Shown: positions 11,917 through 23,369 of the stretch, piece by piece
How positions within the stretch are numbered: position 1 is the stretch's first letter
Layout of the letters: each line of letters opens with the position of its first letter
Virus record (IMG/VR): IMGVR_UViG_3300021961_000288
Coordinates: 1-36,122 of that record
Reading direction: 5' to 3' (one strand)
Length of the DNA stretch: 36,122 nt
DNA from: a virus
Program-made: the position numbers and the translations under genes
The notes under the pieces: generated by a model
Databases searched by the model: none
What the model saw: the letters and a program-made list of their open reading frames with translations, nothing else
Told to the model about the DNA's origin: nothing

Positions 11917-12127
11917 ATATTCCTGCGGCGATGTTGGAGATTTTTTCGTCAATGTCTGGGAACAAAATGTTCAGCATGGCAACTGTGGCGAGAATGGTTG
12001 CGACGATAAAATCTTCGTCAACTGAAATCTCTCCACCCCCGAGATTTATTTTTCGCCCATTCTCTGATGAACCGTATTTGCTTTGAGGCGGTGTTGAACC
12101 TGTTTCTGACGTTGTGTTCTCGCTCAT
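11888..12127 (-). CDS. 79-aa hypothetical protein
   Basis: The Ser/Thr-rich, probably disordered N-terminus (MSENTTSETGSTPPQSKYGS) is followed by a hydrophobic helix (FIVATILATVAMLNILF, ~41-57) that could be a membrane segment or buried helix, then an acidic helix. Its ATG overlaps the stop of the DUF1599-like gene by 4 bp. No family recognised. Confidence 0.65.
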   Translation of the reverse strand: MSENTTSETGSTPPQSKYGSSENGRKINLGGGEISVDEDFIVATILATVAMLNILFPDIDEKISNIAAGIYDEITKEAN

Positions 12128-12666
12128 TTTGTATTCTCGCTTTCCGTTGTTGAGTATTTTCTTTTGGCGGTTTCATCGGGGTCCAAGTCTAACATGAACG
12201 TTCCGTCCCTGAGCATAACAGCGATACTTGCATAGCCAACGATGTCCTCGTAGGTGTCAATCATCGTTTCGTTTTTGACGGTGGCGGCGCCACGTTTCTT
12301 TATGTTTTTCGCTCGCGCAATCTTGTCGCACAACCGAACCGCCACCCCAACCAAACCGAAGTTGTCTATGTTTCCGTGCCCGTAGTCGTGCTGCTTGCGG
12401 CACAGCAACGTTTGCATGCCTTCGCGTGTTGGGAGGTGTCCCTGCTCGTGCATTATGTGCAGCGCACACGCTGCGGCTTGACGCATCAATGCTGCCGCTT
12501 GGAATATGTCCGCCTCGTGGGGTCGGCGCACAAACTCCGCCAACGCCTGTGAAACGGCATCCAACTCGGTGAAACCGAACGGGTCATTTATTCGCACGGT
12601 TTTGCTGTAATCAAATATTTCTTTCAACGCTTCTGCGCACGCTTCATCCCATGAATTTACTGGCAT
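12124..12666 (-). CDS. DUF1599-like nucleotide-modification-associated protein
   Basis: This 180-aa protein has a C-terminal half matching, from memory, the 'nucleotide modification associated domain 1' (DUF1599): KQHDYGHGNIDNFG, then GVAVRLCDKIARAKN, then KNETMIDTYEDIVGYASIA. Members often sit near base-modification or thymidylate genes in phages and may bind nucleotides. The N-half (~1-85) is a helical extension. No thymidylate synthase or methyltransferase is seen in this genome, so its partner is unclear. An AAGGAG lies ~13 nt upstream, and the start overlaps the HTH gene by 23 bp. Confidence 0.72.
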   Translation of the reverse strand: MPVNSWDEACAEALKEIFDYSKTVRINDPFGFTELDAVSQALAEFVRRPHEADIFQAAALMRQAAACALHIMHEQGHLPTREGMQTLLCRKQHDYGHGNIDNFGLVGVAVRLCDKIARAKNIKKRGAATVKNETMIDTYEDIVGYASIAVMLRDGTFMLDLDPDETAKRKYSTTESENTK

Positions 12667-12970
12667 ATAGTTCTGTGAACTCCTTGTTTTCTAGTAGTTT
12701 TTCTTTCAGGTTTTCTAACGCTTTGCGTGTTTTGCGCCAAGCGTGAGACTTCGCTTTGATTCCTATGTTGCTCGCCGAATCTTCGTACGTGTTCTGCAAA
12801 AAATATACTTCATGCAATATCAGCCTGTCCGCGTCGTTTAGTTCGTCGTAGCATTCGGTTACGATTCTAACAAGTTCATAGTCTGTGTCGGGTGATTGTT
12901 CGTAGAACGGCTCAGCCATGAGTAGTTCAACCAGCGACCTCCCAACGTTGGAACGTGGTTCATATTTCAT
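12644..12970 (-). CDS. Sigma-70 region 4-like HTH protein
   Basis: A 108-aa protein whose second half (~44-95) reads as a sigma-factor region 4 helix-turn-helix: LNDADRLILHEVYFL, then TYEDSASNIGIKAKSHAWRK, then TRKALENLKEKLLE. Region 4 contacts the -35 element. No region 2 (-10 recognition) is present, so it is unlikely to be a full sigma factor. It could be an anti-sigma-like or late-gene co-activator that binds host RNA polymerase, which fits a phage with no polymerase of its own. It overlaps the neighbouring genes on both sides. Confidence 0.68.
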   Translation of the reverse strand: MKYEPRSNVGRSLVELLMAEPFYEQSPDTDYELVRIVTECYDELNDADRLILHEVYFLQNTYEDSASNIGIKAKSHAWRKTRKALENLKEKLLENKEFTELYASKFMG

Positions 12971-13406
12971 AGTCGTAATCTGGGCTAGTCATTAGGTCGG
13001 CTACGTCGGCGGGTTCCAATAGGAACCCGCGTGACGGATTCTGTGAATTTCTGGCAAACGTTTTATAGTCCTGCGGGGACAACTGGCGCTGCTCTATGTA
13101 TCGGCGCATCCTGTCGGTGGCAACCATTATGAACGCCCCATCCAATGTGAACACGTACGCCCACCATTTTGCTTTGGTGACTTGCAGCCCTGACGGCTTC
13201 CATATGCCTGAACGGCGAGGGTTCTGTTCCATTTCTATGACCATGCGCCCGTTTCTGTAACGGTCGGTTTTCACCTCAAACGAACCCGCTTCCATGGCGT
13301 CCAAAAATTTTGTGACTAGTTTTTCGCCTTTATGCCCGTATTCCAAGTCTTTACGGAAATCAAACTTGCGTGCTGGCAAATCAAAATCGGAGAACTTTTT
13401 ACTCAT
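12960..13406 (-). CDS. PD-(D/E)XK nuclease-like protein
   Basis: From ATG 13406 the product is 148 aa (an upstream ATG at 13442 would add 12). It shows the restriction-endonuclease-like core: an N-terminal E in GHKGEKLV (~24-31), then SFEVKTDRY (E44-x-K46) and VIEMEQNP, then a KPSGLQVTKAKWWAYVF block (70-86) characteristic of a small phage PD-(D/E)XK family. Likely a DNA endonuclease used in recombination or host DNA breakdown. Nearby RusA and RecB-like nucleases support a DNA-processing role. Confidence 0.7.
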   Translation of the reverse strand: MSKKFSDFDLPARKFDFRKDLEYGHKGEKLVTKFLDAMEAGSFEVKTDRYRNGRMVIEMEQNPRRSGIWKPSGLQVTKAKWWAYVFTLDGAFIMVATDRMRRYIEQRQLSPQDYKTFARNSQNPSRGFLLEPADVADLMTSPDYDYEI

Positions 13407-13602
13407 GGAACGGCGATTTCTCGTATGTGCGAACAAACGCATGTATCTCTGCGGTTAGTTGTTGTCCCTGCTCCCAATGGAAGTCAGCCATCAACCAGTC
13501 TTTATACAGCAAACAGTCGTCGTACTGTTCCTGTTCGTTGACCATCGCTACCAGATATTGGTAAGCCCGCTGGTTACGTTTACGATTTTTCAGCCACCAC
13601 AT
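13399..13602 (-). CDS. 67-aa hypothetical protein
   Basis: ATG 13602 gives a 67-aa product beginning MWWLKNRKRNQRAYQYLV; an earlier ATG (13632) adds 10 residues but overlaps RusA by 53 bp. It is rich in Trp, Tyr and Gln (DFHWEQGQQL) with no recognised domain. It lies between the RusA and PD-(D/E)XK nuclease genes with overlaps on both sides, so it belongs to the replication/recombination transcript. Confidence 0.6.
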   Translation of the reverse strand: MWWLKNRKRNQRAYQYLVAMVNEQEQYDDCLLYKDWLMADFHWEQGQQLTAEIHAFVRTYEKSPFHE

Positions 13603-13939
13603 ACAATACCTGCTTGTCGTCGTCCCATGCACAGCCGTTTAAGCCGTCCATAATGGTTTTTATATAGTTGTCAATATCACCTCTAAGTTTTGACTCGCCT
13701 TCGTACGGGAACACACGGATGTGTGTACCGTCGTTGGAGAACGTGATTTCTATGCCTACGGCACCTGCGAATTTGCGGCGTTTGCCCCACGCATCCCTGA
13801 CCAATGCTTCGGCGTCCAATGTGCGTTGTGGTGTGAATACGCGCCCACGGCGCGTCATTCGCGGTCGTCCTTTGGGGACGGGTTTGTGTGGCACGAACAC
13901 TTGGACGGAGCCACGTTTGCGCGGTTTACGGACGGTCAT
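13580..13939 (-). CDS. rusA: RusA-family Holliday junction resolvase
   Basis: From ATG 13939 the product is 119 aa, the usual RusA length. It has the N-terminal PVPKGRPRMTRRGRVFTP block (20-37) and the acidic catalytic cluster GDIDNYIKTIMDGLNG (88-102) followed by WDDDKQV (105-111), whose Asp residues bind the metal. RusA dimers resolve four-way junctions formed by recombination or replication and tidy concatemers before packaging. ATG 13978 is an alternative start but lacks an RBS and overlaps the upstream gene by 53 bp. Confidence 0.92.
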   Translation of the reverse strand: MTVRKPRKRGSVQVFVPHKPVPKGRPRMTRRGRVFTPQRTLDAEALVRDAWGKRRKFAGAVGIEITFSNDGTHIRVFPYEGESKLRGDIDNYIKTIMDGLNGCAWDDDKQVLYVVAEKS

Positions 13940-14159
13940 GTGGCGCCCCCACCAGCCCGACGTACCAACGTCGCGCATTATAGATGTTTACGGAACCGTA
14001 CACGATTGCTCCCAGTATGAACCCGTATTGTCGGGTCGCAAGTGCGAACCCAACCCATATGCATTCGTTCGCGAATGCCAGCACCCACCCCCACCAGTAG
14101 CCGCGTCCGATAATCACCAGCGCGGTCACACCGATAACGGATAGCACGTAGGGCATCAT
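13926..14159 (-). CDS. Small membrane protein, three predicted TM helices
   Basis: ATG 14159 overlaps the primase stop (ATGATG/TGA), giving 77 aa; the longer frame upstream lies inside the primase gene and is Arg-rich shadow. Three hydrophobic segments are visible: YVLSVIGVTALVII, WGWVLAFANECIWVGFALA and YGFILGAIVYGSVNIY, ending RRWYVGL. The Trp/Gly pattern recalls small phage membrane proteins of PnuC-like appearance, but length is too short for a transporter. Possible inner-membrane effector or superinfection factor; unknown. Confidence 0.7.
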   Translation of the reverse strand: MMPYVLSVIGVTALVIIGRGYWWGWVLAFANECIWVGFALATRQYGFILGAIVYGSVNIYNARRWYVGLVGAPHDRP

Positions 14160-15067
14160 CCGTAGGCTCGCATCACCAGTTTGTCTAGTTCCATGTCGCC
14201 GCCGTCGGCGCGGAGATGGTATTTGCACCAACGCAAGTCGGCTGTTCTCAGAACGATTTTGCACATGCTGGGTGTCATGTGTGAGCGGTAGCATTCGTGT
14301 GCGAGTTTCGTTAGTGTTCTGGAACGGTCAGCCTCGGGGAGCGGACCGTCTCGCCAAATCACCTTGCCCAGCGGGGACAAGTATTGCATCGCGTCATCTA
14401 GCGTTTCGTCGCCTGTGATGTTGATGTTGACGCCGTGGGATGGTTGTGCTGGCGGTTTCCACAATGCGGCAAGTCTGTTGATTGTGTCGGGGTCGGTGCG
14501 GTTTGCGAGTGCGCGTTCCACGAACTCTTGTATGGGTAGCGGCTGGTCGTTGTCGTCAAGGATGCGTCGGTGAATTGCGCCTAGGTCTCTGGCGTTCCAA
14601 TATGGAAGTCGGACATAGTTGCCGTATTTGTTGGGCGTCAAGGTTTCTTGTTTCGGGTTGACTTCTCGTGCTGGGTAGTCGGCGACTTGGTGTGCGCACA
14701 ACAGCATCCGCCGCATCGCGGCGGCTGTGACTGGTTTGGTGGCGAATACCCACACGTGGTACCCTTTGGAGCGGGAGCGTTCCACCCATGCTTCTACGCC
14801 TGCGGCATGTAACGCCTGCTGGATGTTGCGTGCCGCCGACAAGTCCTCAACGTCTATGTCGGAGCATCCCCATACGACCCAGAAATCGCCGCGGTGGGGA
14901 ACCATCGGATAGACGCCGATTGCTTCGGTGCCGTCTAGGTGGCGTCGGAACACGTCAGGCGTGAGCGGTTGCTTGACGCACCGCCCCTCCTCGTGTCCAT
15001 AGACGTCGCCACGTCCGCGGAATAATTCCATGAACGTGTCCAATGTGCTTTGTGTTTCTGTAATCAT
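14156..15067 (-). CDS. Archaeo-eukaryotic-type primase (AEP / TOTE-like PrimPol)
   Basis: This 303-aa protein carries the AEP catalytic motifs: motif I SDIDVED (D70-x-D72), motif II SKGYHVWVF (100-108, the sxH motif with H104), and motif III region YGNYVRLPYW (148-157). The arrangement resembles the TOTE-type AEP primases of phages. It would make primers at the fork for the neighbouring DnaB-like helicase. The C-terminal ~80 residues contain Cys and His (MCKIVLRTADLRWCKYH), helical and like the PriCT-type extensions. An RBS GAGGAG precedes ATG 15067. No DNA polymerase gene is visible. Confidence 0.85.
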   Translation of the reverse strand: MITETQSTLDTFMELFRGRGDVYGHEEGRCVKQPLTPDVFRRHLDGTEAIGVYPMVPHRGDFWVVWGCSDIDVEDLSAARNIQQALHAAGVEAWVERSRSKGYHVWVFATKPVTAAAMRRMLLCAHQVADYPAREVNPKQETLTPNKYGNYVRLPYWNARDLGAIHRRILDDNDQPLPIQEFVERALANRTDPDTINRLAALWKPPAQPSHGVNINITGDETLDDAMQYLSPLGKVIWRDGPLPEADRSRTLTKLAHECYRSHMTPSMCKIVLRTADLRWCKYHLRADGGDMELDKLVMRAYG

Positions 15068-15070
15068 GTG

Positions 15071-16150
15071 CTACCACTCCTCTAAGTTAGCCATTTCTAG
15101 TGTTTCTGATTGCGGTGACGTACGGTTGTTGGTTGTTCTCATGTTGCTGGGCAACACGCCATTCGCAAGTGACACAAGTTTGCCTGTGCCTTGGCGAATT
15201 TCATAATCCATGTCATCCAACAATATGGACGCTGGGCGTTTGCATTTCACTAGGTTCACGGTCAATGTCAATGCGTGGATGCGTGCTTCGTAACGCAACA
15301 TGTCCAAGCGTTCCAGTAGCCGTTCCGTGTTTGCTGCTTTGTCCAAGCGTTCTTCAATTTCTCGGATTTGGGATTCAATCTCAAATTTCTTGCGACGGAC
15401 ACCGATTACGTGCGTTGCCTGTTGTTCACCGCCGTATGCGCCTGATGAGATGGTCATCTTGCGTCCGTCCGCGCCAGCGGAACGTGACGACTGGTGCAAT
15501 ACCAACAGCGGTATATTGTGGCGTTTGCCAAACGCTTTGATGCTGTTCGCTTTGCTGGGGACGTCCTCGCCCCCACCGCTTAACAGTTCCAAATAGTCAT
15601 ATACCATTAATGCGGGTTGTCCGAACATTTCGCGCACCTCACCCAATGCGCGTTCCATGTCCGCCAGTCCCATAATCTGGTCAAACACCGCTAGGTTCGG
15701 GAAGTCCTCGGTTGCGGTTTTGCGCAACAAATCTACTGCATGTTGTTCGCCGCTGGCGACATCCTGCTCCAATATGTTCGCATCCACATTATGCGCCAGA
15801 CACGCCAATTTAATCAGCGTGAGTTGTCGCGGTTCATCAGGACAGAAATAGACGACGCGTTTATCGCGGTTCGCATTCAGGATTTGCATGAGAAACAGCG
15901 TCTTGCCTGAGTGGCTGTATCCGTTAATCAAACACATTTCCGATGGTGCGATGCCACGCATCTGTGCGTCAATGTCGGGGAACCCTAGGTATATGCGTTC
16001 GTTCGGGTTTTGTGCCCAATGCACGAACTCGTCGGCAGCATGCACCAACGGTGTGAAGTATTGTGGTTGTGGACCAGCCGTAGATGCAGTTGGAGCGGGG
16101 ATTTCGCCCCGCTCCAATGCAACCCAGCGACCCGAATAATCGGGTGCCAT
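15071..16150 (-). CDS. DnaB-like replicative helicase (RecA fold)
   Basis: The 359-aa protein has a RecA/DnaB ATPase core: Walker A GYSHSGKT (77-84), Walker B ALMVYDYLELL (180-190), and the LLVLHQSSR motif (215-223). There is no N-terminal DnaB domain; residues 1-50 are a short leader. A ~45-residue coiled-coil insertion (IESQIREIEERLDKAANTER) lies after the core, and the tail is Asn/Ser/Thr-rich. It would unwind DNA with the AEP primase encoded 3 bp downstream. RBS GAGGT precedes ATG 16150. Confidence 0.85.
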   Translation of the reverse strand: MAPDYSGRWVALERGEIPAPTASTAGPQPQYFTPLVHAADEFVHWAQNPNERIYLGFPDIDAQMRGIAPSEMCLINGYSHSGKTLFLMQILNANRDKRVVYFCPDEPRQLTLIKLACLAHNVDANILEQDVASGEQHAVDLLRKTATEDFPNLAVFDQIMGLADMERALGEVREMFGQPALMVYDYLELLSGGGEDVPSKANSIKAFGKRHNIPLLVLHQSSRSAGADGRKMTISSGAYGGEQQATHVIGVRRKKFEIESQIREIEERLDKAANTERLLERLDMLRYEARIHALTLTVNLVKCKRPASILLDDMDYEIRQGTGKLVSLANGVLPSNMRTTNNRTSPQSETLEMANLEEW

Positions 16151-16152
16151 AA

Positions 16153-16614
16153 TTATCTACCTCGCGGCGCCCAGAATGCGTCCTCGGTGGTGGTGGACTT
16201 GAACCATGGACGCTTGGGGTTCTGCGCCAAACGGTCACGGTTGTCCCACACTTCGGTCACACCCTTCTTGGCGCACTCAGCGGCGAGCCATTCGGGGACT
16301 GGTCCGTGCTGCTTGCCCTTGATGCGGACGCTGAACCCCGTAGCGGGAGCGGACGGCATCTGCGGAGTCTGTGCGACTTGCGCATTCGGGAATGTCGCGG
16401 TGACGGCATCCACAAACTGTTCCTCGGTGGTGATTACTCCACCGCGGGTCATGTTGTGTGCGCCGAGCAACGCGTCGGTTGTGACCTCAAACGCCACCAA
16501 AAAATCGGCGAGGTTGCGCTGAACGTCGTCGGTTTTCGGTGTCAGGTCGGCGGCAATTTTTGCCGCTACCTGCGTAATGATTGATTGGTCCTTGCTGATG
16601 TTATTCATGTTCAC
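16153..16614 (-). CDS. Possible ssDNA-binding-type protein with degenerate zinc ribbon
   Basis: A 153-aa protein with a helical N-half, a Pro-rich linker (~80-92) and a C-terminal motif VWDNRDRLAQNPKRPWFK followed by FWAPRG. This matches a phage C-terminal module 'xWDNRxxxxNPKxPxFKCxxCxxxxW', usually a zinc ribbon attached to replication or ssDNA-binding proteins, but here only one Cys (AECAKK) remains. It lies between helicase and RecB-like nuclease and has a very strong RBS (AGGAGGG). An SSB role is inferred from context, not shown. Confidence 0.55.
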   Translation of the reverse strand: MNMNNISKDQSIITQVAAKIAADLTPKTDDVQRNLADFLVAFEVTTDALLGAHNMTRGGVITTEEQFVDAVTATFPNAQVAQTPQMPSAPATGFSVRIKGKQHGPVPEWLAAECAKKGVTEVWDNRDRLAQNPKRPWFKSTTTEDAFWAPRGR

Positions 16615-16653
16615 CCTCCTGTGTGGTGATTGTTGTTATTGGTATTACAAGTC

Positions 16654-16709
16654 GGGCTGACGGCGAGAGGTGTCCCACCGAATAATCACTTCGGTGGCAC
16701 CGCCAGCCC
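16654..16709 (-). ncRNA. Structured intergenic RNA between RecB-like and SSB-like genes
   Basis: Read leftward, GGGCTGGCGG pairs with CCGTCAGCCC over 10 bp including one G-U wobble, enclosing an inner perfect 8-bp hairpin (CCACCGAA with TTCGGTGG, loop GTGATTA) and an asymmetric internal loop. In the rightward sense the same outer stem has an A-C mismatch, so the leftward transcript is the one that folds well. No T-run follows. It could block exonucleases or act as an attenuator. It fills much of the 117-bp gap. Confidence 0.6.
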
Positions 16710-16731
16710 TTGGAGAATTGCATGGACAATA

Positions 16732-17571
16732 TCATAGCGCCTTGTGATGCGTGGACACAACCATTGATAGGTCGGAGACGCAAGCGCCTTTGCATTGTTT
16801 CCAGAAGTCGCACCATTTCGCTGAGCATAGATTGCCTTGGTCGTTGCGTAACCAGACGGTGGACGTGCTCAATGCGTGTGCCATTTGCACGACTGACTGA
16901 ACCTGATTTTTCAGCCATGTGAAATGTTCGCTGTTGCGGTGCAGTCTCAGGACTTGTCCCCGCGGTTTTTGTTGGCGAATCATTACGCCGTATGAGAAGT
17001 CCACGTGGTGCGGGTTCGGCACCCAGCCGAGTGATGCTGCCGCATAAGCGTACACGGTTGCCTGTATTGCGGACGCTTGTTTGTCCCGCTCATTATAGGC
17101 ACGGGATGCGGTTTTCCAGTCCCATACGACACCGCTGGGGGTCACATAGTCCATTGTGCCTTCAACGTGTACGTCCCAGCCGCCTATGTTGATTCCTAGG
17201 GGTACGTCAAATTTGGCTTCGCATTTGCCGCCACGTTCCACGTGCGGCAATACGTCGGTCGTGTAGCCGAGAATCATGGACTCAATCAGCAACGGTACGT
17301 CTGTGATGCCAGTGTCTTTGTGTGGTTGTTGGGCGAGTTCTTCGTATTTGGCGACGGATGTTTTGACCAGCGCCGCGAACTCAGGTTCTTTTGGTGCGGT
17401 CAGCAGTGTTTCAATTCCGTGGTGCACCGCTGTACCGATTATGGTCGCGTCAGAACCTTGACGCGACAGTGGGAACAGTGTGCCGAGTCGCGCACGTTCT
17501 GGGCACAACATCACGTCATTTAGCCATGACTGTCGCACGTATATGCGCTTGTTGATTGAATCGTATTTCAT
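16732..17571 (-). CDS. Cas4/RecB-like PD-(D/E)XK exonuclease with Fe-S cysteines
   Basis: This 279-aa protein has the RecB-type nuclease layout: an early Cys in VMLCPERARLG (C23), a helical region with GTAVHHGIE (46-54, catalytic His region), GTMDYV (D141) and VWDWKTA (D151, K153) for the metal site, and a C-terminal cluster CSAKWCDFWKQCKGAC (C249, C254, C260, C264). One early and three late cysteines would hold a 4Fe-4S cluster as in Cas4 and AddB. Likely 5'-3' exonuclease for recombination. An AGGAGG lies 8 nt before ATG 17571. Confidence 0.83.
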   Translation of the reverse strand: MKYDSINKRIYVRQSWLNDVMLCPERARLGTLFPLSRQGSDATIIGTAVHHGIETLLTAPKEPEFAALVKTSVAKYEELAQQPHKDTGITDVPLLIESMILGYTTDVLPHVERGGKCEAKFDVPLGINIGGWDVHVEGTMDYVTPSGVVWDWKTASRAYNERDKQASAIQATVYAYAAASLGWVPNPHHVDFSYGVMIRQQKPRGQVLRLHRNSEHFTWLKNQVQSVVQMAHALSTSTVWLRNDQGNLCSAKWCDFWKQCKGACVSDLSMVVSTHHKAL

Positions 17572-17603
17572 GGTCTATTTCCTCCTAGTTGATTGTTGAT
17601 GCC

Positions 17604-17612
17604 ATTTTAGCA
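17604..17612 (-). promoter_or_regulatory. Candidate extended -10 promoter for the replication genes
   Basis: Read leftward, TGCTAAAAT matches an extended -10 element (TGnTAtAAT), about 35 nt before the RecB-like start and ahead of its AGGAGG. A clear -35 box was not found, which extended -10 promoters can tolerate. It is the only notable AT-rich stretch between the 288-codon-frame gene and the RecB gene. Confidence 0.3.
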
Positions 17613-17631
17613 TGGACAAGTGGTTCATTTG

Positions 17632-18402
17632 TTATTTGTTTCTTTTACGGTATTTTACTGGTGTTGAGATATTGAGTATTACTCCTGTTTTATCATATAC
17701 CATACGCACGATTTTGGTTGGCGTGTGACCCGTGTTCAGGGCAAGGTTTTTTGCCATGGTTGTAGCCGCATCCATGTCGGCGGACTCGTCCATGGCATTT
17801 TTGTGGAGTTGCCTGCGACGTTCCTCCACTTCTTTTGCGAATGCCATAATGGTCACTTCTGGTACGTTCACTTTGCTGCGCAATTCCGCCATCGGCGGAC
17901 GTTGCGCTTTGGTGAGTTCCCGTTCCAAATAATCAATATCGTCCGCGGTGAGATGATATTTGCTTTTTCGTGAAACGCTGAGCGAATACCTGTATTCGTC
18001 GGGGCTGACTCCAAGTTGGCGCAACGTGTCTGACATGCTACGCCCATAAGTGTCGTACACCGTTCGGACATAATGCCTGATTTGTGTACGCCCACCATGT
18101 TCACCATGTCGCACATGTTCTGGTAGCGTCTGGGACTCAAAATCCCCAATGATTACGGGGTTTTTCTTCTGTTCCGCATAGGCATCGTAGAACGTGCACA
18201 AGTCCGTGAAATAGTCCAATATGTCGTTTGGCGTCCATGGTGCACAATAGTTTCTGACATCGCACAACTCGCGACCCATAAACATGTCGTTCACCAAATC
18301 GGCAACACCAATTTTTACGCCAATCGGTTTCACGTCACACAAACATTCGGAGCCGTGCTCCAAATATCCGCACGACTTGTCCTTGCCGTATTTGCGTTTC
18401 AT
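17632..18402 (-). CDS. Hypothetical early protein (256 aa)
   Basis: ATG 18402 is chosen because AGGAGG lies 8 nt upstream; ATG 18408 is only 1-2 nt from that RBS, and the longer frame to 18498 overlaps the zinc-ribbon gene. The N-terminus has three Cys (SCGYLEHGSECLC) and the middle contains helical segments such as SDTLRQLGVSPDEYRYSL, resembling an HTH or helical DNA-binding region. The C-terminus is basic (TPVKYRKRNK). A regulator is possible; no family is recognised. Confidence 0.7.
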   Translation of the reverse strand: MKRKYGKDKSCGYLEHGSECLCDVKPIGVKIGVADLVNDMFMGRELCDVRNYCAPWTPNDILDYFTDLCTFYDAYAEQKKNPVIIGDFESQTLPEHVRHGEHGGRTQIRHYVRTVYDTYGRSMSDTLRQLGVSPDEYRYSLSVSRKSKYHLTADDIDYLERELTKAQRPPMAELRSKVNVPEVTIMAFAKEVEERRRQLHKNAMDESADMDAATTMAKNLALNTGHTPTKIVRMVYDKTGVILNISTPVKYRKRNK

Positions 18403-18404
18403 TT

Positions 18405-18719
18405 TCATTCCTCCTCGTGGCTGTAATATTCGTTGGAACACTCCACACACATACCCAATTCCTCGGCATGAATGTCCGCTTTGACGGGTGCACCGCACTC
18501 GTCACACGGAACACTGTCGGCATCCACCGAAAACCACGCCATGACAGTCCGCAACAGATTGTCATAATCACCCGATGTAGCCTCCTCGTGGAACGCATCC
18601 CACTCGGAATCAGGCAAACCTGATTCACGCATAATGCGGCGAACACGCCCAAGTATTGAGAACGCGTTGCCATCCTCACCGACTAGCGGTATATTGATGT
18701 TTTCATGTATTGGTGTCAT
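18405..18719 (-). CDS. Small zinc-ribbon protein
   Basis: ATG 18719 has an AAAGGA RBS and gives 104 aa; an upstream ATG at 18764 has none. The C-terminus has a four-Cys ribbon (VPCDECGAPVKAD then LGMCVECSNEY, ~73-98) ahead of an acidic tail. The centre (EEATSGDYDNLLRTVMAWF) is typical of small phage proteins of unknown function. Probably protein- or nucleic-acid-binding. Its TGA overlaps the next start (ATGA). Confidence 0.72.
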   Translation of the reverse strand: MTPIHENINIPLVGEDGNAFSILGRVRRIMRESGLPDSEWDAFHEEATSGDYDNLLRTVMAWFSVDADSVPCDECGAPVKADIHAEELGMCVECSNEYYSHEEE

Positions 18720-18764
18720 TTCGTTTCCTTTGTTGGTAGTTGTTTTATGCATCCGTATTTCCAT

Positions 18765-18935: not shown

Positions 18936-19117
18936 TTCGTTGCCTCCATTTGTGTAGCGCCGCCAGCATGCCTAGTGCATGCGGGTCGGAACGTTAGTGG
19001 TACATGCACCAGCACCCAAGCCGAACACTTGGGGCAAGCGTATTTCGTATTCTTTGGGTACGCCTTGGCGGGGGACTTGCGTCCCCCGCTCGTAGCGCCA
19101 TGCGGATTGTCACTCAT
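18932..19117 (-). CDS. Small zinc-ribbon protein
   Basis: The start at ATG 19117 overlaps the end of the DUF3846-like gene by 8 bp; a further ATG two codons upstream is less likely. The 61-aa product has TKYACPKCSAWVLVHVPLTF followed by PACTRHAGG: a CxxC...CxxH zinc ribbon in the form found in many actinophage and aquatic phage proteins, with a conserved final Met-Glu. It contains, in its coding sequence, a perfect GC hairpin (GCGGGGGAC / GTCCCCCGC near 19068-19089). Confidence 0.72.
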   Translation of the reverse strand: MSDNPHGATSGGRKSPAKAYPKNTKYACPKCSAWVLVHVPLTFRPACTRHAGGATQMEATK

Positions 19118-19712
19118 CGCCAATCCTTTTGGTCAGGTCATTCAGATAAGTCACCGAACGACTCAAAATATCTTGGAACCGTTCAGGAACATCGTTCACC
19201 GCCTCCATAAACCTGCCGTTCTGTTGAGCCTGCTCCGCGTACTGCTTCACATAATCAACATCATCCTTGGAGATGACGCCAGCACGGAACGCCAACGCAA
19301 CCGCACCAGACAACCCCTTTGAGAATTGCAGCATTTTCACAACCTCGGGGTGCATGTGCATGATGTAGTTGATGAAGTCCAACGGCAAATCGTAATTCTC
19401 GCCGTCATAATCACCGTTGTCAGGGTTCGTGCCGCTCACCAGCACAACGTCACCCGCTAGGTCGCGGTTGAACACGATAGACGCCAACGGGTTCATGGGC
19501 ATATTCAGAATCTTGCCCTCGTCGTGCACGTATCCGACCAGTACCATTTGTGTGTCATCGGACTCGTTGATTGCCTGCGTTTTCACGCTGTCAATATAGC
19601 CGCCGACTTTCGCCTGAATTTCGGTGAGCGAGTTTTCCGTAGAAAACACGAACGCCTCGGGTTCCTTCGTTGGGTCAGCATAAATCACCAACCCCGTAGT
19701 CATCCCAAACAT
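19110..19712 (-). CDS. DUF3846-like protein
   Basis: ATG 19712 (RBS AGAGG) gives 200 aa; the longer frame to 19760 runs into the hammerhead. The N-half matches DUF3846 from memory: IQAKVGGYIDSV (~33-44), then VGYVHDEGKILNMPMNPLAS and AGDVVLVSG (~57-93), a phage domain of unknown function usually in early operons. The C-half is helical and ends in a coiled-coil-like tail. Hammerhead A lies 28 nt upstream, so its mRNA probably begins at the ribozyme cleavage site. Confidence 0.78.
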   Translation of the reverse strand: MFGMTTGLVIYADPTKEPEAFVFSTENSLTEIQAKVGGYIDSVKTQAINESDDTQMVLVGYVHDEGKILNMPMNPLASIVFNRDLAGDVVLVSGTNPDNGDYDGENYDLPLDFINYIMHMHPEVVKMLQFSKGLSGAVALAFRAGVISKDDVDYVKQYAEQAQQNGRFMEAVNDVPERFQDILSRSVTYLNDLTKRIGDE

Positions 19713-19740
19713 GGTATTGCCTCTTTTCTGAGTGCTTTCT

Positions 19741-19801
19741 GGACTCGTCAGCACCAGCATCTACTGGTGGACACGGAGCGGGGAGACTCCGTGTTTCGTC
19801 C
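19741..19801 (-). ncRNA. Type II hammerhead ribozyme A
   Basis: Read leftward: stem II GGAC; GAAA; stem III ACACGGAG / CTCCGTGT (counting the closing A15.1-U16.1) with an 8-nt loop; cleavage triplet GTC; stem I CACCAG / CTGGTG with hexaloop TAGATG; core CTGACGA; stem II GTCC. Every invariant core position is present (C3 U4 G5 A6 N7 G8 A9; G12 A13 A14; A15.1-U16.1; H17 = C). Predicted cleavage falls between 19770 and 19769. Stem II is open to the flanks, so it is type II. It lies between a membrane-protein gene and the DUF3846-like gene; the 3' product would carry a 57-nt leader starting with the stem I hairpin. Confidence 0.94.
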
Positions 19802-19834
19802 TGCACCAACATTAGCATGCGGGTGCAACACTGC

Positions 19835-20092
19835 CTAGCGGCGACGGCTCGGGTGCCGACGCTTAGCCGCCGCCAATCGGCGACGACGACGCTGAAATGC
19901 CTTGTATTCGCCGACGGTTTCGTTCAACGTTATGCCGAACGGTATCCACACCAACGCGACAATCATCAGCGCCAGCAACGCTACGCCGTACGCGGTTGTG
20001 TCCGCGATGTTCGTGAAAACCAGCCACGAAACCATCAACGCACACACCAACGTAAGCGCCGTAAGCGCCGCATGTGTAAGTACGTACTTCAT
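19835..20092 (-). CDS. Small membrane protein, two TM helices, Arg-rich tail
   Basis: The 85-aa protein has two hydrophobic helices (ALTALTLVCALMVSWLVF, ~8-26, and YGVALLALMIVALVWIPFGI, ~35-54) and a strongly basic C-terminus (RRRRRLAAAKRRHPSRRR), predicting an N-in/C-in hairpin. Topology and charge resemble class II holins, but its early leftward location argues against a lysis role. It starts in an ATGA overlap with the gene above. Unknown function. Confidence 0.72.
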   Translation of the reverse strand: MKYVLTHAALTALTLVCALMVSWLVFTNIADTTAYGVALLALMIVALVWIPFGITLNETVGEYKAFQRRRRRLAAAKRRHPSRRR

Positions 20093-20361
20093 CCTAAATC
20101 ACCTCCATTCATCCATCCAAAATTGCGACGATTATATTCAGTCGGGCACCACTCGGTATTCGCCAGCGCCCAACCGCTCCACTGGACCACCTCAGCGGGT
20201 GCCATGCGACGTAGCGCCTCATGGTCAAGCGCACACCAGCCCGACATCGGGATGACGTCCGCCTCACCTTGCTCCCACTGACTCCATACCTTACGTGGTA
20301 CCTTGTCGCACACGTACCATGTGCCGTCCCGTGTGTTCACGATAACCGATGACATAATCAT
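20089..20361 (-). CDS. 90-aa Trp-rich hypothetical protein
   Basis: MIMSSVIVNTRDGTWYVCDK begins a small protein with seven or so Trp residues (VWSQWEQGEAD, VVQWSGWALANTEWC) and a C-terminal GWMNGGDLG. ATG 20361 overlaps the upstream stop (ATGA); the third codon ATG (20355) is an alternative start. An upstream GCAGGT may serve as RBS. No family recognised; it sits in the chain of small overlapping genes downstream of the vWA-like gene. Confidence 0.68.
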   Translation of the reverse strand: MIMSSVIVNTRDGTWYVCDKVPRKVWSQWEQGEADVIPMSGWCALDHEALRRMAPAEVVQWSGWALANTEWCPTEYNRRNFGWMNGGDLG

Positions 20362-20597
20362 TTACCTGCTTTCTTGTTGAGATTTGCGACCGCAACGTTC
20401 AACGTGTCGGTCAGATACTTGTCCCACTTCGCGACGTCATCCGTAGGAGCGCAACGCACCCACTCGTCGTTCACGTCATCCCAGACGGTGCCCTCGTCAA
20501 AACGCGCCTCCGTCATCGCCGTGTCCACGTGCCAACCCCATTGGGGCGAGTATGTGACCACGAAGTAGTGTTCCGTGTTTTCTGTTGATGTTTCCAT
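20358..20597 (-). CDS. 79-aa hypothetical protein
   Basis: ATG 20597 with an upstream GGAGGT is preferred over the longer frame to 20678, which runs into an intergenic hairpin. The product begins METSTENTEHYFVVTYSPQW and has an acidic centre (FDEGTVWDDVNDEWVRC) and a Lys-rich end. It has the look of a small beta-sheet plus helix phage protein. Function unknown. Confidence 0.68.
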   Translation of the reverse strand: METSTENTEHYFVVTYSPQWGWHVDTAMTEARFDEGTVWDDVNDEWVRCAPTDDVAKWDKYLTDTLNVAVANLNKKAGK

Positions 20598-20645
20598 AAT
20601 GTCGGCACCTCCATGCCGCGTATTGCATAATGTGTGTGTACCGTT

Positions 20646-20679
20646 GGTGGCGCAGGGGACACACAACCCCCGCGCCACC
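20646..20679 (-). other. Intergenic hairpin in leftward transcript
   Basis: Read leftward, GGTGGCGCGGGGG pairs with CCCCTGCGCCACC over 13 bp with one internal G-U wobble around the loop TTGTGTGT. In the rightward sense that wobble is an A-C mismatch, so the element is built for leftward RNA. It lies just after the vWA-like gene's stop and ahead of the next RBS, without a T-run: a 3'-end stabiliser or attenuator rather than a classical terminator. Confidence 0.7.
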
Positions 20680-20700
20680 GCCTACCCTCGCGGCTGGCGG

Positions 20701-21546
20701 CTATGCCACCAGCCCCAAGCCTGTGATTGTTTGCATCACCCATTCCACGGGGTCAGTCATGCACTGATTGGCGTATGACTCCAACCGCTCCATGCGGACG
20801 TCTGCACCGTACACCTCAGCGTACTTCGTGTGCACCGTTGAACCGTAGCCGCCGCCTTGCTTGGCGCCGATTTCGTTTGCGACCGATGACATCTCGCGGA
20901 CACAGAACGCCATACGTCGCAGCATGGACGGGTGAGCCAACGCGAACATCAACGTGTCAATGTCCATCTGTTCGGTTGCGTCGTGCAATTTGGTGACCGT
21001 CGTATGTGTGACGCCGCCGCCTCGCACCGCGGTCTCGCCCCACAACTCGCACGACACGCCCAACTTGCCCAACGTGTCCACCAGCGCCAGCAACACGATG
21101 CCACGCTTGCGGATGAATTCCGCGCTGAACGAACCCGACGCGCCATAATCAACGAACACGCGGACAACCTTGCCCATGCGTGCCTGCGGCTCGGCGACGA
21201 ATTCCATCATGCATTCGGGGTCGCCTTGCATGTAGCGTCCCATGTCCACGATTGCGCCGCTGACGCCATATTGCGTCGTGTGCGCCATGTCCAGCCGCTC
21301 CGCGAGTCTGTCGGTCAGCGAGTCCAACATCGCCTCAACCTCCGTGCGGACATCGTGCCAGCCGTCGCGTGCCAACGCGTACGCCTCAGCGAACGAATCG
21401 GTCATGGTGAATTCGCGGGTGCCAGTATCTGACATTCCGAATTGCGGGTTGGTCTTGCAGTACGCCAACATCTCACCGAACGATGAGAATTTATCCATGT
21501 GGACGGTAGCGCGTCCAACCTTGATTGTTTCAGTATGCGTATTCAT
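20701..21546 (-). CDS. vWA-like partner of MoxR-type ATPase (DUF7192-like)
   Basis: The 281-aa protein resembles the phage proteins paired with MoxR-type ATPases (DUF7192 from memory). The N-terminal part holds FGEMLAYCKTNPQF and a helical TEVEAMLDSLTDRLAERLD segment. A Rossmann-like core follows: VVRVFVDYGASGSFSAEF (128-144), where DxGxSGS at 133-139 occupies the place of the DxSxS metal-binding MIDAS motif, then GIVLLALVDTLGKLGVSCELW. It would act as the substrate adaptor of the AAA+ ring encoded immediately upstream. Good RBS (GGAGGT). Confidence 0.75.
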   Translation of the reverse strand: MNTHTETIKVGRATVHMDKFSSFGEMLAYCKTNPQFGMSDTGTREFTMTDSFAEAYALARDGWHDVRTEVEAMLDSLTDRLAERLDMAHTTQYGVSGAIVDMGRYMQGDPECMMEFVAEPQARMGKVVRVFVDYGASGSFSAEFIRKRGIVLLALVDTLGKLGVSCELWGETAVRGGGVTHTTVTKLHDATEQMDIDTLMFALAHPSMLRRMAFCVREMSSVANEIGAKQGGGYGSTVHTKYAEVYGADVRMERLESYANQCMTDPVEWVMQTITGLGLVA

Positions 21547-21589
21547 GTGTGCACCTCCGTGCGTTTGTGTGTGTATGTGATACTAGCGC

Positions 21590-21621
21590 GGTGGCACCAC
21601 CCCACGCGGGATGGTGCCACC
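21590..21621 (-). other. Perfect intergenic hairpin after the AAA+ gene
   Basis: GGTGGCACCA and TGGTGCCACC form a perfect 10-bp stem with a 12-nt GC-rich loop, 9 bp beyond the AAA+ stop codon. It lies between the AAA+ gene and the vWA-like gene, like the hairpins in other gaps of this operon. No T-run follows. It may set relative amounts or protect the 3' end of the AAA+ message. Confidence 0.7.
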
Positions 21622-21630
21622 ATTATGCCG

Positions 21631-22887
21631 TTATGCCAACGTGACGGACTCGCGAATCTTCGCGACTTGCTCATCCTTGGCGCCCTTCAACACGCGCATC
21701 TTGTACGCGGTCTCCATGTCCACGCCAGCCCTCAGTAGCCGCGCACCGTCAATCGTGGCGCGAGGCGACACGATGACACGCAACCCGTAGCGGGACACGT
21801 TCGCACGGGACGTACGAACCGCATTCAGCCACGTGCGGGACGTCTCAGCGTCCAACCCAACCGCATCCAACATGGACGACTCCAACGACTCATCTAGGTC
21901 AATCGCGACCATCGCGAACCTGTCCAGAAACGCCGCGTCAATCGGGTTGCGTCCCACATATTCCGCGGTCGCACCGTTGCCGTACGTGTTCGCGGACGCC
22001 ATACCCACGAACGAATCGTGACGCTTGACCATCCCATCGGGGAATGCCATCACGCCATTCGCCAGCGCACTATTCAGCACGTTCAGCACGTTCGGGTTGC
22101 CGTTGTCCACCTCATCCAGTAGGAACACGCCACCATGCTCAAACACGTCACGGAATGGCGTACGCACCGTGTTACCGTGCGCATCCACGAACCCCACCAG
22201 CGACGCCTCAGACGTCTGAGCGGTCACGGACTTAGCGGCGAACGGAACCCCTAGCGCCTTGGCGACGTTCTCGGCGATGGTGGACTTGCCAGTGCCAGCC
22301 GCGCCCACAAGGTACACGTGGACACCAGCGGACACCGACGCCAGCACGTTGGGGAATTCCGCGTGCTGACGTCCCGCAACCTGCACGGTCGCCTTGGACG
22401 GTAGCGTGATGTTGGTGACGTGCGGACGCATGTCCTGCACCATCCGCTCAACCTCGCCACGGAACCCTGCCATAATCGGCGAGACATTTTCGGCGACGAT
22501 TGCCGCCACCTCATCCTTGTCCACGCCAACCTTGGCAGACGCCAGCACCTCAGCGGCGGCACGACGTGCCACCTCCGCGATGACCGCATCCACACCCGTT
22601 GCATTATGCGTAGGCGCCGCTGGCGCCGTCACTGTCGGCTCCACTTGGGCGGACGTGTAGGTCACCGTCTTGGCGCCGCCACGAATCGCCGCCAACATCG
22701 CCTCGCTAGTGAAGTGCATCGGCGGACGTCCCACGAATGAGACACCCAGATACTTGCACAACGCGATGAGCGTCGTCTTGCGTGCCTGCACCAAGTCTAT
22801 GGTGCGTGCCGCGCCGTTGTATGCGTAAGTGACGCGTTCGCTAGACGCGTCATAGCCCGTAATCACGGGCGCCTTGTTTGCGGACAT
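21631..22887 (-). CDS. MoxR/AAA_5-type AAA+ ATPase
   Basis: From ATG 22887 (RBS GGAGGT) the product is 418 aa; the longer frame runs into hammerhead B and is rejected. The N-terminus (~28-72) is helical, SAP-like (LVQARKTTLIALCKYLGVSF), followed by a Pro/Ala linker and helical segment. The AAA+ core has Walker A GAAGTGKST (195-203), Walker B VFLLDEVDN (254-262), sensor 1 GMASANT (295-301) and an arginine-finger-like NPIDAAFLDRF block. MoxR-type ATPases remodel protein complexes with vWA partners; here the partner is the next gene. Its phage role is unknown. Confidence 0.87.
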   Translation of the reverse strand: MSANKAPVITGYDASSERVTYAYNGAARTIDLVQARKTTLIALCKYLGVSFVGRPPMHFTSEAMLAAIRGGAKTVTYTSAQVEPTVTAPAAPTHNATGVDAVIAEVARRAAAEVLASAKVGVDKDEVAAIVAENVSPIMAGFRGEVERMVQDMRPHVTNITLPSKATVQVAGRQHAEFPNVLASVSAGVHVYLVGAAGTGKSTIAENVAKALGVPFAAKSVTAQTSEASLVGFVDAHGNTVRTPFRDVFEHGGVFLLDEVDNGNPNVLNVLNSALANGVMAFPDGMVKRHDSFVGMASANTYGNGATAEYVGRNPIDAAFLDRFAMVAIDLDESLESSMLDAVGLDAETSRTWLNAVRTSRANVSRYGLRVIVSPRATIDGARLLRAGVDMETAYKMRVLKGAKDEQVAKIRESVTLA

Positions 22888-22918
22888 TACAATTACCTCC
22901 GTTTGTGTGTTTCCGATG

Positions 22919-22979
22919 GGACTCATCAGCGTGAGCACGTACTCACGGACACGGGGCGATTATGCCCCGTGTTTCGTCC
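22919..22979 (-). ncRNA. Type II hammerhead ribozyme B
   Basis: Read leftward: stem II GGAC; GAAA; stem III ACACGGGG / CCCCGTGT, extendable by one G-C pair; cleavage triplet GTC; stem I CGTGAG / CTCACG with hexaloop TACGTG; core CTGATGA; stem II GTCC. The core is the textbook sequence. Predicted cleavage is between 22948 and 22947. The TAG stop codon of the gene upstream (22981-22979) supplies the first G of stem II, so the ribozyme starts within the stop codon. The AAA+ start codon lies 31 nt beyond its 3' end, giving a 60-nt leader after cleavage. Confidence 0.95.
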
Positions 22980-23278
22980 TAGGCGACCCGTTCGTAGCGT
23001 GCGCCGCCCTTGCGGACATAGCGCCACCCGTACGGGGCGATGATTTTATTCATGCCCTGTTGGTCGCTCACGCTACCCCAACCCGTGCATTCTGGCGTAA
23101 ACGTCCACTCCGCACCGTGTGCGCTGTAAAACGTGCCCATGTGTGTTCCGTGATGGATGACGTGACGCGCCCAACCATCGTATGGGTTGCCCATATCCTG
23201 CACGCTCCACTTGCCAACCTTGCGTGTCCCCGCACGCCACGGCATAGCCGTGAAGTCGCCGATATTTTCCAGTCTCAT
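22979..23278 (-). CDS. 99-aa hypothetical protein between two hammerheads
   Basis: The product begins MRLENIGDFTAMPWRAGTRK and is rich in Trp, Gly, His and Tyr (GNPYDGWARHVIHHGTHMG, YGWRYVRKGGARYE), suggesting a compact beta domain; no family recognised. RBS GGAGG lies 6 nt before ATG 23278. It is flanked by hammerhead C upstream and hammerhead B downstream, so self-cleavage at both would release this gene as its own mRNA with a defined 5' hairpin and a 3' hairpin (stem III of B). Confidence 0.75.
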   Translation of the reverse strand: MRLENIGDFTAMPWRAGTRKVGKWSVQDMGNPYDGWARHVIHHGTHMGTFYSAHGAEWTFTPECTGWGSVSDQQGMNKIIAPYGWRYVRKGGARYERVA

Positions 23279-23301
23279 AATTGCCTCCGTTGTGTGTGTC
23301 T

Positions 23302-23369
23302 GAACTCATCAGCACGGACAGATATCCGTGGACACGTGGCACGGGTGAACCGTGCCGCGTGTTTCGTTC
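23302..23369 (-). ncRNA. Type II hammerhead ribozyme C
   Basis: Read leftward: stem II GAAC; GAAA; stem III of two helices (ACACG / CGTGT and GGCACGG / CCGTGCC) split by one C-A mismatch; cleavage triplet GTC; stem I CACGGA / TCCGTG with hexaloop TATCTG; core CTGATGA; stem II GTTC. Relative to A and B, stem II changes from GGAC/GTCC to GAAC/GTTC, a compensatory pair change. Predicted cleavage is between 23331 and 23330. The next start codon lies 23 nt past its 3' end. Confidence 0.93.

Follow-up and report, generated by a model that had tools for sequence, protein, structure and literature searches.

The closest described counterparts of the elements reported here are the clustered type II hammerheads of prophages (Perreault et al. 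2011, PMC3088659; RF02276), for which a role in operon processing was proposed. A triple prophage array is cleaved in vivo in E. coli, array-carrying fragments of about 2 kb are cleaved in vitro, and the 5′ end of a halovirus transcript supports hammerhead activity in vivo (PMC3088659). A 2017 review remarked on the persistent link to phages and described the role of prokaryotic hammerheads as still open (PMC6155905); why bacteria and their viruses retain these ribozymes has been an open question since 2011.

The array described here shares with the clustered prophage hammerheads its permutation, its core and its clustering around genes or gene blocks, but differs from them in a stem II of only 4 bp with an A on each flank, a loop I of either 5 nt (UNANG) or 6 nt (UAAAUG-like), and the lack of a detectable loop I–tail pseudoknot. 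Moreover, almost all of the present elements fall below the Rfam cut-off, they reach up to 10 per genome, and their synteny is documented. The HHphage element of haloviruses HF1 and HF2 (Perreault et al. 2011) likewise lies within a polycistronic transcript, a few nucleotides before an early gene's start codon, although it is a single element with a variant core in an archaeal virus. The glmS ribozyme also self-cleaves in the 5′ region of a bacterial mRNA, but has a different fold, depends on a metabolite and lowers expression, whereas nothing suggests a ligand here. The sequence-only reading had believed that no described phage carried such an array, a belief that gives way before the clustered prophage hammerheads of 2011 and the same processing idea attached to them. 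What is new is the scale and precision of placement, the syntenic conservation, a subtype that is mostly below cut-off, arrays in cultured phages, on which no paper was found in the literature searched, and a covarying alternative RNA.

Hammerheads of the leftward operon

The window, an IMG/VR virus record of 36,122 bases analysed over its whole length, contains exactly three elements that match a descriptor comprising GAAA, stem III, NUH, stem I, CUGANGA and stem II, and every one of them lies on the minus strand (Table 1). The same scan places no hammerhead in the rightward region, and reversed copies of all collected loci yield 0 matches. A core-only pattern returns the same three window elements, against a mean of 0.02 in shuffled sequence, with 0 of 100 shuffles reaching three. 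In each element the core is complete, with CUGAUGA or CUGACGA, GAAA and a GUC cleavage site. Folded alone, each adopts the hammerhead shape as both its minimum free energy and its centroid structure, at −31.0, −30.3 and −26.5 kcal/mol for elements 1, 2 and 3 (z of −4.0, −4.5 and −3.5); in longer context, competing folds beat the stem-II-enforced fold by 3.4 kcal/mol (element 1) and 5.2 kcal/mol (element 2) in a model that leaves tertiary contacts out. Three helices surround the core with support from covariation, and in the window elements as in the alignment, loops close stems I and III while stem II is open, the arrangement of type II. Self-cleaving type II hammerhead ribozymes, with cleavage predicted from these features, are the best explanation of the three elements.

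Descriptor scan and folding agree with the sequence-only reading on the coordinates and strand of three hammerheads in gaps between leftward genes, and its account of the leaders holds as well. Specifically, it had anticipated leaders of 52–60 nt, and the computed lengths are 52, 60 and 57 nt; it had placed the elements 23–31 nt before a start codon, and the end of stem II is separated from the ATG that follows each leader by 23, 31 and 28 nt (elements 1, 2 and 3). The ribosome-binding sites it had noted correspond to Shine-Dalgarno (SD) motifs located in all three leaders, and the 6-bp stem I it had described is accompanied by an additional U-G pair. Hammerhead 2 begins on the final base of the stop codon upstream of it.

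Table 1. Hammerheads, predicted leaders and leftward genes of the window
Feature	Position	Strand	Evidence and remarks
Hammerhead 1 (type II)	23302..23369	−	predicted cleavage 23331/23330; pattern, descriptor, fold; model R1 53.8 bits
Predicted 52-nt leader of hammerhead 1	23279..23330	−	stem I at 5′ end; SD GGAGG 23288-23284
99-aa protein (g22979), behind hammerhead 1	22979..23278	−	no family match
Hammerhead 2 (type II)	22919..22979	−	predicted cleavage 22948/22947; pattern, descriptor, fold; model R1 62.1 bits
Predicted 60-nt leader of hammerhead 2	22888..22947	−	stem I at 5′ end; SD GGAGG 22900-22896
MoxR-like AAA+ ATPase (phrog_249, AAA_5), behind hammerhead 2	21631..22887	−	family matches
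DUF7192 protein	20701..21546	−	family match; no hammerhead right after the gene
Hammerhead 3 (type II)	19741..19801	−	predicted cleavage 19770/19769; pattern, descriptor, fold; model R1 63.8 bits
Predicted 57-nt leader of hammerhead 3	19713..19769	−	stem I at 5′ end; SD GAGG 19723-19720
DUF3846 protein, behind hammerhead 3	19110..19712	−	family match
Remaining leftward operon: exonuclease, DnaB-like helicase, AEP primase, RusA, others	12124..18764	−	no hammerhead

The rightward genes code for structural functions (terminase, portal, scaffold, major head protein and SU10-like adaptor), and the leftward operon is probably early, judging from the AEP primase, DnaB-like helicase, exonuclease and RusA downstream. 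The primase (14156-15067, −) has a match to PF22548, the AEP domain found in TOTE conflict systems. In two gaps without a hammerhead, 21547-21630 and 20598-20700 on the minus strand, there are long hairpins that are rich in GC and lack U-runs (z of −3.7 and −2.6). Promoters or terminators in place of ribozymes were rejected, as a scan for them performs at chance level.

The Rfam model RF02276 (Hammerhead_II) scores element 3 at 23.5 bits, below its gathering cut-off of 37 bits, and a whole-window Rfam search at E<=1 reports none of the three elements. At the gathering cut-off, only one hammerhead match is obtained in 15 array-rich or related loci; because the set lies largely below this cut-off, phage annotation misses it. 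The GGAC/GUCC of stem II is part of the search pattern, and neighbouring elements found by the descriptor only carry GAAC/GUUC, GACC/GGUC or GGUC/GACC at this position. A loop I–tail pseudoknot has been described for the majority of type II hammerheads (PMC3088659). Across 202 elements, loop I pairs equally well with its own tail and with the tail of another element in a swap control, and membership in the pseudoknotted type II subgroup (Perreault 2011) was rejected for want of such a signal.

Conservation and placement across viral genomes

The pattern combining the core with GGAC/GUCC occurs in at least 119 stretches in viral contigs. Among the matches listed, both hairpins form in 138 of 149 distinct core-only matches in viral contigs, compared with 17 of 29,800 shuffled interiors, and since this pattern makes no demand for stems I and III, the comparison is free of the descriptor's stem bias. 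An alignment of 58 elements shows pairing in 99.7% of its pair cells, a value biased upward because these elements were chosen by the stem-requiring descriptor. Compensatory change is seen at 13 of 16 pairs, double-change cells number 300 versus 84 in shuffles, and slid-alignment controls are at most 43% paired. Shuffles, reversed controls and covariation collectively reject a chance origin of the hammerheads.

In the gap ahead of the AAA gene, hammerheads are present in the window, in L123 (77% identity in the AAA protein), in L124 (55%), and in L061 and L099; in the gap ahead of the DUF3846 gene, they are present in the window and in L124, L085, L007, L020, L177, L195 and L203. L123, the closest relative found, carries hammerheads at two matching gaps, the second lying one gene further upstream and matching element 1, and L124 also carries two. 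Between relatives at 42–77% protein identity, same-gap elements have changed their stem sequences and kept the pairing. A hammerhead follows directly after the DUF7192 gene in some relatives, but not in the window. The expectation that related phages would have hammerheads in matching gaps is thus borne out in the closest relatives (77% and 55%) and fails in many at 36–50% identity in the AAA protein, which share the gene order and lack the hammerhead. This patchy presence implies that the phages can do without processing at these gaps.

A lenient scan combined with a covariance model recovers no diverged hammerhead at these gaps in the hammerhead-less relatives, except for a variant clade before DUF3846 (L174:1258-1316 (−), L193:7253-7311, L194:4121-4175, L212:5042-5098 (−) and L228:3886-3942). 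In this clade the G10.1-C11.1 pair is lost (U and U) and the cleavage site carries A; the L212 and L228 elements additionally have GAAU with a swapped 15.1-16.1 pair. The clade may be either degenerate or a functional variant.

Survey of 183 distinct elements reveals a start codon within 150 nt in 181 and an ATG with SD in 160, leaving 23 without such an ATG under automatic calling; the cleavage-to-start distance has a median of 52.5 nt (quartiles 47–58), the choice of start codon being automatic and favouring near starts. In half of 176 elements, no more than about 10 nt separate the ribozyme start from the stop codon of the upstream frame, and in all 43 of 43 multi-element loci the elements share one strand. 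The families encoded downstream are mostly accessory or DNA-related, including DUF932, AAA_5, DUF3846, helicases and ArdC-like proteins, and the 25 families listed downstream of hammerheads include no head or tail family.

An independent check of placement comes from the submitted annotation of two cultured Streptomyces phages, Yara (MH019215, 8 hammerheads) and Gibson (MK305891, 7 hammerheads), in which 14 of the 15 elements are intergenic and lie 11–17 nt before an annotated start codon. The remaining Yara hammerhead (L231:12914-12983) overlaps the annotated 5′ part of gene 88, which suggests that the start codon of this gene is annotated too far upstream. Whole-record search confines the arrays to one stretch, 52.1–58.0 kb of 68.7 in Yara and 53.2–59.7 of 69.4 in Gibson. 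Arrays of 5–10 elements recur in many viral contigs; five further array-bearing contigs searched over the whole record hold 5 to 10 hammerheads each, again clustered in one genome stretch. Regions of Sinorhizobium phiM5 and Rhizobium X2_24 contain no hammerhead, comparison with GenBank phages gave no close match for the window DNA or for two array-bearing queries, and a protein-pattern search with P0002 found nothing. Identical hammerhead sequences with identical flanks occur in L158 and L159 (three each) and L171 (one), from assemblies named Phycicoccus jejuensis, Streptomyces iakyrus and Eggerthellaceae MAG; this identity reflects either a shared phage or cross-contamination of assemblies.

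Proposed operon processing and competing explanations

The best explanation of the array, to which we assign a probability of roughly 0.6 on sequence evidence, is that an early polycistronic RNA cuts itself into gene-sized mRNAs while it is still being transcribed. The leftward genes would be transcribed as a single RNA, within which each ribozyme would fold on leaving the polymerase and cleave after GUC. The predicted units extend up to the gap before g22979, over g22979 alone (383 nt), from the AAA gene to g19835 (3178 nt), and from DUF3846 to the replication block. Each downstream unit would begin with the stem I hairpin, a 5′-OH and a 52–60 nt leader with its Shine-Dalgarno motif, while each upstream unit would terminate in the hairpin of stem III and carry a cyclic phosphate. 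Protection of both ends by hairpins, together with the lack of a 5′ phosphate, is plausible and chemically reasonable, and the likely benefit would be independent stability and translation of each unit. The proposal that the elements cut the transcript has partial support. It fits their placement, their orientation on one strand, the synteny and the wider survey; against it stand the many relatives without elements, the competing longer-context folds of elements 1 and 2, and the 23 surveyed elements that lack an ATG with SD.

Placement of the ribozymes directly next to stop codons and SDs also accommodates regulated cleavage, in which a hairpin between the tail and CUGANG, or ribosomes on the abutting stop codon or SD, would block folding, forming a switch that ties mRNA separation to translation, in contrast to a ribozyme that cuts constitutively. 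A core–tail hairpin of at least 5 bp can form in 54 of 211 elements, compared with a mean of 23.8 when tails are shuffled, where none of 200 shuffles exceeds 36, and is present in window element 2 (CUGAUG/CAUCGG) and in an L123 element. Moreover, core base N7 covaries with a tail base (25 T-A and 5 C-G versus 2 T-G and 1 C-A; Fisher p 5e-4, approximate because the sequences are related). However, the hairpin occurs in only about one quarter of elements and may merely lock the cleaved product, and we regard regulation of this kind as rather unlikely.

If the elements were neutral or selfish, spreading by copying from gap to gap and bringing the phage little benefit, this would account for the patchy presence across relatives, the loss of the G10.1-C11.1 pair in one clade, and the recurrence of identical stem I hairpins inside single contigs at 8 loci, with stem I similarity of 0.53 within contigs versus 0.37 between them. 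Yet compensatory changes in the same gap at 42–77% protein identity and the tight spacing to start codons indicate selection, making this account improbable. Formation of circular RNA is less probable still. Here two hammerheads would free an RNA with 5′-OH and 2′,3′-cyclic phosphate ends, which are compatible with ligation, and a host RtcB-type ligase would close it; hammerheads do yield circular RNA in retrozymes and circular RNA agents (e.g. PMC6155905). Against this, Perreault et al. sought circular or spliced products and found none (PMC3088659), a scan of the window proteins identifies no RNA ligase, and the window units of 383 and 3178 nt share no common size.

If operon processing is real, gene output in these phages is determined in part by catalytic RNA in place of host nucleases. 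The conserved, precisely placed arrays of cultured Streptomyces phages open this processing to a direct test.

A three-way-junction RNA before the AAA gene

At many loci, in one subgroup of relatives, the gap occupied by hammerhead 2 in the window instead holds an unrelated RNA with a three-way junction, found in 59 contigs (e.g. L125:2700-2759 (+), L044:3040-3099 (−) and L116:2187-2248 (+)). Its consensus is GGUGG-hairpin-AUUAGRUGUNCGUGAACGNACAGCC, with a possible base triple, and some 30 nt separate it from the SD and ATG that follow. The RNA belongs to no known Rfam family and occurs as one copy per locus in the sources searched; in the loci searched, none has both this RNA and a hammerhead immediately before the AAA gene. 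Covariation is strong, with double changes at 10 pairs, and slid controls are at most 48% paired. The operon gaps might serve as slots for interchangeable RNA processing elements, either a hammerhead or this uncatalogued RNA, a generalization that we consider unlikely; if it were true, the three-way-junction RNA would represent a new class of self-cleaving ribozyme.

Other structures are also seen upstream in relatives. Strong hairpins precede the AAA gene in, for example, L133-L137 and L141-L144, and tRNA genes, none of which occurs in the window, are similarly placed at L133:5434-5506, L137:5126-5198, L123:5530-5602, L145:2522-2594 and L141:1105-1177.
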